Positions 2,562 through 47,140 of a DNA stretch of 64,000 nt are shown here, one piece after another. The notes below the pieces were generated by a model. The model was not told where the DNA came from. It made no database searches and saw only the letters and a list, made by a program, of their open reading frames with translations. Origin of the DNA: Capsulimonas corticalis (lineage in GTDB: Bacteria > Armatimonadota > Armatimonadia > Armatimonadales > Capsulimonadaceae); NCBI RefSeq assembly GCF_003574315.2, contig NZ_AP025739.1, positions 2,480,001-2,544,000 on the forward strand. Direction: 5' to 3'. The position numbers and the translations under genes are program-made. The number at the start of each line of letters is the position of its first letter. Position 1 is the stretch's first letter.

Positions 2562-2782
2562 GACCTATTCCCCGGCGCTTTAGTGCGTCTGCCTGGCAAA
2601 CCCACCCCCGGCCTTCGGCCGACCCCTCCCGCCGACGGGAAGGGTGATTTCAGAGTGTGTTATAGCAGGCCGCTCCCGTAAGAGGCTATCTTACCAACCC
2701 TTCCCGTCGGCGGGAGGGGTCGGCCGAAGGCCGGGGGTGGGTTTGCCAGGAAGAGTGCGCGCGAAGCGCCGGGGAATAGGGA
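2562..2782. repeat. Long imperfect inverted repeat between trpC and trpF
   Basis: Arms of about 82-87 bp (2562-2643 and 2696-2782) are near-perfect reverse complements around a 52-base centre. Each arm also contains smaller palindromes (GGCCTTCGGCC; CCCTCCCGCCGACGGG). The outer ends read CCTATTCCCCGGCGCT, nearly the same as the outer end of the repeats flanking the DUF559 nuclease gene at 45.6-46.3 kb. The element fills the gap between the trpC stop (2790) and the trpF start (2534), where the run is otherwise tightly packed. It looks like a non-autonomous mobile element (MITE-like) and could form a strong hairpin in the trp transcript. Confidence 0.8.
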
Positions 2783-5229: not shown

Positions 5230-5291
5230 AGGGCGGGCTCCAGTAGTTTGACCCAGAGGCTCCGTCGCGACTGCGAATTTGAGATTCGAAT

Positions 5292-5450
5292 CGGGACCAT
5301 GGGTATAAAACCCACGTCTGGGAGACGCTGTGCGTCTAACCGTCCGTGCCGGACGGACAAAATATTTGTGTTCGATTGCCGGCATTTGCGTCCGGCACGG
5401 ACGCTTAGCGCCTTGCGCTCCCAGACGTGGGTTTTATACCCATGGTTCCG
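5292..5450. repeat. Inverted repeat of about 62-bp arms
   Basis: Left arm 5292-5354 and right arm 5389-5450 are imperfect reverse complements (CGGGACCATGGGTATAAAAC against its complement), separated by 34 bases. Shorter palindromes such as GTCCGTGCCGGAC lie within the arms. The repeat sits in the intergenic space between the start of the trp run and the end of the first glutaminase gene. It is probably a palindromic interspersed element. It contains ATG and stop codons only by chance. Confidence 0.75.
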
Positions 5451-5503
5451 AAAATGGTGAGGGAGCGGAAATTGTGCTGTTAGAGAAAGCGGCTGACAAT
5501 ATT

Positions 5504-44799: not shown

Positions 44800-45609
44800 A
44801 TGAAACTTGGCGTAACCACTCTGGGATGTCCGAATTGGACCATGGATGAAATCCTGACAAATGTGAAGGCGTACGGCTACGACGGCGTGGAGCTGCGCGG
44901 GATCGGGCCGGACCTGGACCTGACGAAATCTCCGCACTTTGCGACGGACGCCGAGACCGCGCGGACCCGGCGGCGCTTCGCCGACGCGGGCCTCGAAATC
45001 TCGGCGCTCGATTCCTCGGTCGTTCTGGCGCAGGCCGAATCTGCCCAGCGCGACGCCGCCTTGCAGCATGGCCGCGAGACCATCGATCTGGCCGCTCGCC
45101 TCGGCGTTCCATACGTGCGCGTCTTCGGCGGCGGCGACGCTATGCGCCACGATGACGCCGAAGACCTCGTCGCCGCCGGCCTCGCCGAGCTTGGCGAATA
45201 CGCTCTGGGCACAGGCGCGGACATCTCCGTCCTGCTCGAAACCCACGACGCCTTCAGCACCGGCGCCCAGGTCGCCGCCGCCGTCGCGCGCGCCGCTCAC
45301 CCCCGCGCCGCCGCCCTCTGGGACCTGCACCACCCCGCGCGCCACGGCGAAGCCCCCGCCGAATCCTACCACGCCCTCGCGCCCTACACCCGCTCCACCC
45401 ATGTGAAAGACAGCATCGCCGGCGGAACCTACTGCCTGTGCGGCGACGGCGATATCCCCCTGCGCGAAATGATCGCCCTGCTGCGCGCCGGCGGCTACGA
45501 CGGATATGTGACATTGGAGTGGGAGAAGCGCTGGATCCCGGAGCTGCTGGAGCCCGAAGTGGCGTTTCCGCAGTACGCGAAGGTGCTGCGGGAGTGGCTG
45601 GGGGAGTAA
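44800..45609 (+). CDS. Sugar-phosphate isomerase/epimerase (AP-endonuclease-2 TIM barrel)
   Basis: The second of two adjacent ATGs (44800, five bases after GGGAGG) gives 269 residues. The TIM barrel (MKLGVTTLGCPNWTMDEILTNVKAYGYDGVELRGIG) carries metal ligands in VLLETHDAFSTGAQV (Glu), ALWDLHHPARHGEAP (Asp, His) and YVTLEWEKRW (Glu), plus RSTHVKDSIAGG. Such enzymes isomerise sugars or related polyols, sometimes inositol-derived. The gene is followed directly by the DUF559 element, whose left end begins at the stop codon. Confidence 0.88.
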   Translation: MKLGVTTLGCPNWTMDEILTNVKAYGYDGVELRGIGPDLDLTKSPHFATDAETARTRRRFADAGLEISALDSSVVLAQAESAQRDAALQHGRETIDLAARLGVPYVRVFGGGDAMRHDDAEDLVAAGLAELGEYALGTGADISVLLETHDAFSTGAQVAAAVARAAHPRAAALWDLHHPARHGEAPAESYHALAPYTRSTHVKDSIAGGTYCLCGDGDIPLREMIALLRAGGYDGYVTLEWEKRWIPELLEPEVAFPQYAKVLREWLGE

Positions 45610-46290
45610 TCCCTATTCCCCCACTCGCTTAGGCTCGTCTCCCCTTTTTCCCAACAAGCTGCTTCGCAGGGTAAAAGGGGTGCTGATAACTACCGTCCAT
45701 TCACTCGTCACAAGGCCGTGAGGATGATTAGGCTTATTGGAGTTCGTTAGTTTTGTGAAGGGTTTGTATGAATCCAGAAGATCCTCGAATTGCTCGTGGG
45801 GAGCATGCATTAGTAAAGCGTGAGTTGGCGCGAGAATTTCGACGTGATCCGACGCCGACGGAGCGAAAGCTCTGGATGCATTTGCGTGGCAGCCGTCTTC
45901 AGGGCCTGCACTTTCGTCAGCAGCAGGTCATTGACGGCTTCATTGTAGACTTCTTCTGCCATTCTGCAAATCTTGTGGTGGAAGTTGACGGAGGCGTGCA
46001 TCTGAACCAGCAAGAATACGATCAAGAGCGAGACGCCGTCCTCGTTGCTCGCGGTCTCCATATCCTGCGGGTTCCTGCGTCTGACGTAGAAAGCCGCATC
46101 TACGACGTTCTCACCAGAATCAAACAGGCGGCTGCGCAGATGCTACCCAGTCCCCAAACCGAATCATAACCTAATTTCCTCACGGCTCGTGACGAGTGAA
46201 TGGACGGCAGTGATCAGCACCCCTTTTACTCTGCGAAGCAGCTTGTTGGGAAAAAGGGGAAAGCGCTTTAGCGCCGGGGGAATAGGGACT
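45605..46290. mobile_element. DUF559 nuclease element with long terminal inverted repeats
   Basis: Inverted repeats of about 120 bp (45605-45732 and 46170-46290) bracket a single DUF559 gene. They match over almost the full length, sharing for example CCCAACAAGCTGCTTCGCAG and GTAAAAGGGGTGCTGAT, with a few mismatches. The left end sits on the isomerase stop codon and the right end on the stop codon of the convergent phosphatase gene. The outer end (CCCTATTCCCCCGGCGCT on the right) is shared with the non-coding inverted repeat in the trp operon. No target duplication is seen. A mobile or selfish unit is the simplest explanation. Confidence 0.7.
45768..46169 (+). CDS. DUF559 endonuclease-like protein
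   Basis: This 133-residue protein is of the DUF559 type, related to very-short-patch-repair nucleases (PD-(D/E)xK fold). Visible features are FRRDPTPTERKLWMHLRG at the start, then FIVDFFCHSANLVVEVDGGVH (near residues 58-78) with Asp, Glu and Asp at the likely active site, YDQERDAVLVARGLHILRVPASDV and a short C-terminal helix. Enzyme activity has not been shown for most members. GAAGGG precedes the ATG. Its stop is directly followed by the right inverted repeat, and nothing else is enclosed between the repeats. Confidence 0.88.
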   Translation: MNPEDPRIARGEHALVKRELAREFRRDPTPTERKLWMHLRGSRLQGLHFRQQQVIDGFIVDFFCHSANLVVEVDGGVHLNQQEYDQERDAVLVARGLHILRVPASDVESRIYDVLTRIKQAAAQMLPSPQTES

Positions 46291-46981
46291 ACCGCCGCAT
46301 CTTCGTAAACCACCCGGGCGAGAATGACGCCGGGCGCGCTGAGTATGTGGTCTCACCCGGAAGGGCGATAGCGCTGAGGAAGCCGCCCATGCCGCAGCCG
46401 GTGTCGATCCCGATGTAGCCTTTGGTCAGGGCGTGCGTGACTTTGGGCATCGGCGTGTGTCCGCGAATGACGGTCTGCGTCCAAACGCGTCTTTCGACTC
46501 CGGTCACGCGCTCCCAGCGCCAGCGCGTGGGAACCTGCCGCTCTAAAGGCTGGGCCAAATCCCATCCGGCGTGGGTGAAGATGTAATCGTCAGTGATGTA
46601 AAACGGCAGCGTCCAGCTCTCCGCTTGAAAGTAGAAACGGGCGTGCGATTCCGGGAGGGATGTGGGATCACCGGGCCGGATCGGGTATCCCGCCGCCTCA
46701 TAGGAATCCAAAGTCGTTTGGCCGCCCATGCCGGTCATCACGCTCATGTCCCCCGACTCCAGAAAGAACATCATCGCTTCTTCGTGGTTGCCCTGGAGGC
46801 AGATCTTGCGGCAGCGGTCGAATTGAAGGACTTGTTCGACGCAGTCGAAGGGGTTTCGGCCCTGACGGTTGATCAGGTCGCCGAGGAAGATCACAAGGTC
46901 GGTGGGCTGGAGGGGGAGTTTGGCGAGAAGAGTTCGGAGGGCGTCGGATTCGCCGTGGACGTCGCCGATGGCGTAGATCAT
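46289..46981 (-). CDS. Serine/threonine-type metallophosphoesterase
   Basis: The ATG at 46981 gives 230 residues beginning MIYAIGDVHGESDALRTLL. It has the calcineurin-type metal motifs GDVHG, FLGDLINRQGRNP (in place of GDxVDRG), LQGNHEEAM, FTHAGWDL and VIRGHTPMP. The family dephosphorylates proteins or diadenosine polyphosphates (PrpA/ApaH class) in the cytoplasm. The upstream ATG at 46999 lies inside a palindromic element and is less likely. Its stop is the insertion point of the DUF559 element. Confidence 0.9.
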   Translation of the reverse strand: MIYAIGDVHGESDALRTLLAKLPLQPTDLVIFLGDLINRQGRNPFDCVEQVLQFDRCRKICLQGNHEEAMMFFLESGDMSVMTGMGGQTTLDSYEAAGYPIRPGDPTSLPESHARFYFQAESWTLPFYITDDYIFTHAGWDLAQPLERQVPTRWRWERVTGVERRVWTQTVIRGHTPMPKVTHALTKGYIGIDTGCGMGGFLSAIALPGETTYSARPASFSPGWFTKMRR

Positions 46982-46990
46982 GGGGTAGGA

Positions 46991-47140
46991 GGCCCTCATC
47001 CCCCGGCCCCTTCTCCCAATTCTGGGAGAAGGGGAGCAAGAGTTTTGTTTTTGTTAGGATCAAAAATCCTAAGCTGAAATCTCAATGTAATCCGACTCCC
47101 CCTCTCCCAGAATTGGGAGAGGGGGCTGGGGGTGAGGGCC
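46991..47140. repeat. Palindromic element of nested hairpins
   Basis: Arms 46991-47037 and 47095-47140 are inverted copies (GGCCCTCATCCCCCGGCCCC against GGGGCTGGGGGTGAGGGCC). Each arm also contains its own hairpin (CTTCTCCCAATTCTGGGAGAAG). Such GC-rich repeats are abundant in several bacterial phyla. It occupies the space between the phosphatase start and the aldolase stop. The CCCTCCC/GGGAG pattern is similar to the shorter palindrome at 5504 and to the arms at 2.6 kb. Confidence 0.75.

Follow-up and report, generated by a model that had tools for sequence, protein, structure and literature searches.

Does a small nuclease gene lying alone between two long inverted repeats merely neighbour those repeats, or do gene and repeats form a single mobile unit? 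The question is raised by a gene of the DUF559 family in Capsulimonas corticalis, located in the 64-kb stretch analysed here (positions 2480001-2544000 of a single-contig, 7.65-Mb genome), hereafter called the window. An initial annotation had proposed a one-gene mobile unit, related to its repeats as REP-associated tyrosine transposases (RAYTs) are to repetitive extragenic palindromes (REPs). The evidence set out below makes it probable that this unit belongs to a selfish element of two parts, of which it is one copy with the gene: a RAYT/REP-like mobile system based on an unrelated PD-(D/E)XK nuclease. The wider pattern suggests that a class of minute mobile DNA elements has been overlooked. 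The features of the locus, in window coordinates, are as follows:

45607..46291, + strand: whole unit (left arm, DUF559 gene and right arm), belonging to repeat family A of the C. corticalis genome
45607..45731, + strand: left arm, with 43 matches genome-wide and smaller palindromes inside (CCCCTTTTTCCC...GGGTAAAAGGGG)
46170..46291, - strand: right arm, matching the left arm in inverted orientation (87% over 127 bp, rising to 95% in a 75-bp core)
45768..46169, + strand: DUF559 (PF04480) gene for a predicted Vsr-fold PD-(D/E)XK nuclease of 133 aa
44803..45609, + strand: upstream neighbour, a gene for a xylose-isomerase-like TIM barrel (PF01261), whose stop codon TAA at 45607-45609 coincides with the left-arm tip
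46289..46999, - strand: downstream neighbour, a gene for a calcineurin-like phosphoesterase (PF00149), whose stop codon at 46289-46291 coincides with the right-arm tip

The arms are reverse-complementary over about 127 bp, with the core pairing 45640-45714 and 46186-46260, and they constitute the longest inverted pair of the window. With 43 matches to the arm genome-wide, a chance origin of this pairing is excluded. The only gene between the arms is the open reading frame (ORF) 45768-46169, assigned to DUF559 with an E-value of 2e-30 and 105.3 bits, against a family cut-off of 20.6. A Pfam scan of the unit returned DUF559/REase only, with no HUH/Y1 tyrosine transposase (PF01797), and no DDE, serine or tyrosine transposase accompanies the nuclease within it. 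The repeats and their sole occupant are as initially annotated. The flanking genes are convergent and unrelated, as had also been stated, but the arms do not lie between their stop codons; they begin with them, one arm with TAA (TAATCCC) and the other with TAG (TAGTCCC). We infer that the unit was inserted at this isomerase/phosphatase site itself.

The family A arm is found mostly as inverted pairs, which form gene-less elements of roughly 250-270 bp. Terminal inverted repeats are present both on the window unit and on the family A elements; in a search for a GTAG-tagged end such as that of RAYT/REPtron systems, some family A tips read GTAG or GTAA and others differed. Two of these elements enclose a near-identical insertion sequence (IS) of the IS3 family (L036, genome 1441109-1442712; L038, genome 2048450-2050049), and one arm pair encloses a 168-aa ORF (L039:757-1263, - strand) for which no Pfam, NCBIfam or PADLOC match was obtained. 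ISs that target REPs are already known.

A family search of the genome gave five DUF559 matches, three of them full-length; the statements that follow cover the full-length genes and leave out two short, weak matches. All three are bracketed by repeats, each by its own arm type. In family C, a 38-bp arm accompanies the DUF559 gene between argB and argJ (L040), with 25 matches in the genome and none for a reversed control pattern, while the 52-bp arm of family B, at the third gene (L041), has 88 matches. Elsewhere in the genome, the arms of these two families also occur largely as short inverted pairs. The three arm types are mutually unrelated (arm-to-arm alignment scores of 7-9), and the three proteins are 39-48% identical to each other. 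When single arms were folded as single-stranded DNA, strong folding was obtained in family B only (z -3.0). One gene-less copy of this family lies in the window itself:

2588..2754, no strand: gene-less family B element (arms 2588-2645 and 2697-2754), whose cognate DUF559 gene is elsewhere in the genome (L041)

By eye, this element is centred in a family A-like palindrome (L170, window about 2560-2790; outer CCTATTCCCCGGCGC.. / ..GCGCCGGGGAATAGGG), an arrangement that has the appearance of a nested insertion.

The association was then surveyed at 95 DUF559 loci with full flanks, taken from the phylum of C. corticalis and from named genomes of many phyla, by comparing the 500 bp on each side of the gene and counting a score of 20 or more as a match. 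Matching flanks were found in 59% of these loci (inverted in 36%, direct in 42%), a figure to be read with the provisos that the loci were best-scoring or motif-retrieved and that related loci are non-independent. The same procedure gave 3.9% for 155 other genes in those loci, called with a simple ORF caller, and about one match in 100 for mispaired flanks of equal GC content. Close to DUF559 genes (within 200 bp), perfect hairpins with 8-bp stems reached a density of 4.2 per kb, versus about 0.35 per kb further off. In additional sets, matching flanks were present at 47% of 19 loci of the same phylum and at 58% of 12 loci from a plasmid collection. Among small PIN genes of same-phylum genomes, only 3 of 23 (13%) had them, with 0.33 hairpins per kb, and the difference from DUF559 genes (26/44) is significant (Fisher p = 0.0003). 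Bracketing by repeats, predicted from the single locus, is therefore the usual condition of DUF559 genes (59% vs 4% for neighbouring genes and 13% for PIN genes). In several Nostoc loci (L149, L152, L156, L163 and L168), the DUF559 frame can extend through the upstream repeat arm, which would make the repeat the translated N-terminus.

It has to be noted that the repeats appear to go with the nuclease lineage rather than with the host. Using only flanks outside the ORF, none of 21 same-genome DUF559 pairs below 65% identity shared a flank repeat. Between different genomes, in pairs with unrelated outer flanks, the repeat was common to 75% of those at 65-80% identity (n=245) and to 96% of those at 80% identity or more (n=107), percentages that represent strong tendencies and not exact probabilities because the pairs are non-independent. 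Among ten cyanobacterial genomes, the five that possess a DUF559 gene of clade II contain 24, 56, 1, 21 and 2 copies of the clade-II repeat, and the five that lack such a gene contain 0, 0, 6, 0 and 0. These strong tendencies indicate that every DUF559 lineage is paired with a cognate repeat of its own, and it is at this level of cognate pairing that the proposed analogy with RAYTs and REPs holds.

As regards the protein, the model of the window product (predicted local distance difference test, pLDDT, 87.6) matches gonococcal NGO0050 (3hrl) with Z 16.5, the catalytic domain of the homing endonuclease I-Bth0305I with Z 12.5 and Vsr (1cw0) with Z 9.9. Across 49 homologues, the acidic residues D61, E72, D74 and D85 are invariant, as is R88, and H78 is conserved in 48. 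The protein is thus predicted to be a nuclease with a Vsr-type PD-(D/E)XK fold, the superfamily in which E. coli YcjD, another DUF559 protein, had already been placed (PMC1189080).

Taking these observations together, a mechanism can be proposed in which the element has two parts, the small single-domain nuclease and the palindromic repeat found both around its gene and, gene-free, at dispersed sites. The nuclease would most likely recognise its own palindrome, in duplex form or as an extruded hairpin, and nick or cut it; replication or repair by the host would then place a copy of the arms, whether or not the gene accompanies them, at a new site, and no target duplication would result. Both the cleavage of the repeat by DUF559 and its role as the driver of movement are inferred.

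Several points weigh against this proposal. About 40% of the sampled DUF559 genes have no matching flanks in the flank test, and the family A arm is not exclusive to DUF559, since the IS3-family ISs and the 168-aa ORF are bracketed by such arms as well. On inspection by eye, gene-less and gene-bearing elements of families B and C seemed to have inner ends in common, but a shuffle test gave no significant result and the idea was dropped. No target duplication was seen when locus L251 was compared with empty sites, nor, by eye, at the family A copies. The protein is not known to have strand-transfer or ligation activity. Finally, Caulobacter VsrA, a DUF559 protein, has a DNA-damage phenotype linked to cytosine methylation, for which mismatch repair has been proposed (PMC12907096); this is the sole functional study of a DUF559 protein found in the open-access literature.

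Evidence for movement comes from relatives. In Anabaena and Dolichospermum, copies of a 570-650-bp unit, a gene between two repeats, lie in unrelated surroundings and share 95-97% identity, and the homology stops at the repeat ends. For one of these units (L094), the right-flank gene is present in ten genomes, two of which have the unit and eight of which do not, and homology on the right side breaks off within about 30 bp of the unit edge, in the best case 2 bp from it. Although its right edge is exact, this locus was rejected as a clean empty site on account of a left flank that is not conserved. The hpa operon of Deinococcus is clearer. In this operon, D. proteolyticus carries a unit between hpaB and an oxidoreductase gene, of which D. 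wulumuqiensis retains a remnant; in strain NW-56 the unit is between the oxidoreductase gene and hpaE, and in D. aetherius near a VOC gene. The nucleases of the NW-56 and D. proteolyticus units are 87.5% identical, and their neighbours 80-90%. In the hpa operons of D. deserti and D. ficus, the unit is absent and the junctions are tight and palindrome-free. Similarly, the paa operon (paaD|paaZ) contains a unit in D. psychrotolerans, and the same position is empty and palindrome-free in strain QL22. Because these empty sites hold no palindrome, arms and gene entered repeat-free sites together. Presence and absence at orthologous sites, clean in Deinococcus and less so in Dolichospermum, support the one-gene mobile unit originally suspected, and the refuting conditions set in the initial annotation, where they could be applied, did not overturn it. 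An automated search for empty sites among the retrieved loci gave nothing clean, and E. coli ycjD was rejected as a case of this type, since this gene alternates with the eef efflux operon: ycjD is present in 3364 of 5426 E. coli genomes, and in at least some of the others the operon takes its place. A palindrome downstream of ycjD (L250:1992-2040) is found in 5376 of the 5426 genomes, each of which has between 2 and 34 copies (median 19).

These empty sites bear directly on the first alternative, a homing-type element, in which the nuclease would cut pre-existing gene-less palindromes and the repair of the break would copy the gene in, the palindrome being the target and not the moving unit. 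The catalytic domain of I-Bth0305I is among the closest solved folds, the DUF559 gene sits in the middle of a palindrome that is otherwise gene-less, and other insertions (the IS3 elements and the 168-aa ORF) also lie inside such palindromes. However, the empty alleles of D. deserti, D. ficus and QL22, all within Deinococcus, contain no palindrome, which makes homing into existing palindromes less likely, and homing alone does not explain the dispersal of gene-less copies to many sites. This alternative is therefore considered unlikely.

It could also be suggested that DUF559 is a passenger, that is, cargo of palindromic elements moved in trans by a RAYT, an IS transposase or another enzyme. 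The genome does encode four complete Y1 (RAYT-type) transposases, and the arms of family A carry an unrelated ORF and an IS. However, the two RAYT genes that have inverted flanks possess their own, unrelated arms, and RAYT as the mobiliser of arms A, B and C was rejected on this basis. Moreover, repeats track the DUF559 lineage within and between genomes, which a passenger role would not require and which makes such a role less likely; we regard it as rather improbable. By eye, an inverted pair at window 5291-5451 (TCGGGACCATGGGTATAAAACCCACGTCTGGGAG, 93 bp between arms) is closer to the arms of the RAYT genes of this genome (L261) than to those of DUF559.

A housekeeping nuclease, acting in very-short-patch mismatch repair or genome maintenance in a neighbourhood that merely gathers palindromic repeats, would agree with the phenotype of VsrA and with the wide distribution of ycjD in E. 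coli, but is very improbable in view of the patchy distribution of DUF559 genes, their shifts between operon positions, their lineage-specific flanking repeats (the cognate-pairing test had already weakened this explanation) and the scarcity of flanking repeats at other small genes, for example those of the PIN family.

A two-part selfish element, as proposed above, may have counterparts based on other nucleases. Small stand-alone GIY-YIG genes from the same phylum (L285-L314) had been intended as the negative control, and 12 of the 18 with full flanks turned out to be flanked by repeats; because they showed the same flanking repeats, they were dropped and PIN genes were used instead. Some GIY-YIG genes are flanked by CGTC-type REPs (CGTCATTCCCGCGAAAGCGGGAATCCA in L304 and a similar repeat in L293), and others by duplicated tRNA 3' ends (L300, L305 and L308). 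At DUF559 genes, the strict pattern revealed no CGTC-type REP, and the looser one gave 0/44 with the repeat on both sides. Small GIY-YIG nucleases look REP-associated as well, and the division into CCCYTCCC repeats at DUF559 and CGTC repeats at GIY-YIG, made with patterns picked after viewing the data, should be taken as a lead only. It is conceivable, if still tentative, that selfish systems made up of a nuclease and a palindrome, with no HUH enzyme, form a broad class in bacteria. In this class, GC-rich CCCYTCCC-type palindromes would be the partners of DUF559, and CGTC-type REPs or tRNA ends those of small stand-alone GIY-YIG nucleases, each lineage spreading its own repeat family.

A further, gene-less inverted pair of palindromes (CCCCCGGCCCCTTCTCCCAATTCTGGGAGAAGGGG) was observed at window 47000-47132, directly upstream of the phosphoesterase gene. 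It resembles the DUF559-type repeats of other species, and no cognate gene was found for it in this genome.

DUF559 proteins are widespread and, apart from the repair role proposed in Caulobacter, unexplained, and there are many palindromic repeat families without a known mobilising enzyme, as explicitly described for the CGTC-tagged REPs (PMC3733652). If it exists, the broad class would explain many of these orphan REP families, including the repeat beside ycjD in nearly all E. coli genomes. If the proposal for DUF559 is correct, REP-like repeats would have originated with two or more enzyme folds that are unrelated, and small nuclease genes in annotated genomes would have to be regarded as mobile elements. 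Since pairing is lineage-specific, the question is directly testable, for instance with E. coli YcjD and its adjacent repeat.

Among known systems, the closest is that formed by RAYT/TnpA-REP proteins and REP, BIME (bacterial interspersed mosaic element) or TIRYT repeats (PMC3733652, PMC6006769), with which the DUF559 unit shares its makeup of one small gene between palindromic repeats that also occur dispersed and gene-free, cognate repeat families and, at the copies compared, insertion without visible target duplication. In that system, however, the enzyme is a HUH/Y1 transposase and not a Vsr-fold PD-(D/E)XK nuclease, and the RAYTs of C. corticalis itself use other arms. The Vsr mismatch endonuclease, E. 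coli YcjD and gonococcal NGO0050 (3hrl), the latter itself DUF559-like, have the same fold and family, but are known as orphan or repair nucleases, and a search of the open-access literature turned up no paper that ties DUF559 or YcjD to repeats. I-Bth0305I, a free-standing homing endonuclease (EDxHD), resembles the window protein in fold and in being a single-gene selfish nuclease, although it homes to one gene sequence, whereas the DUF559 unit carries a dispersed repeat of its own and inserts at sites that hold no palindrome. Miniature inverted-repeat transposable elements (MITEs) with an autonomous partner are likewise gene-less inverted-repeat elements that share their ends with a gene-bearing one; unlike them, the DUF559 unit has no DDE transposase, showed no target duplication at the copies compared and has arms built of small palindromes. 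Lastly, the CGTC-tagged REPs (PMC3733652) are also palindromic repeat families without an assigned enzyme, but DUF559 seems to go with GC-rich CCCYTCCC-type palindromes, the CGTC type having turned up beside small GIY-YIG nucleases.
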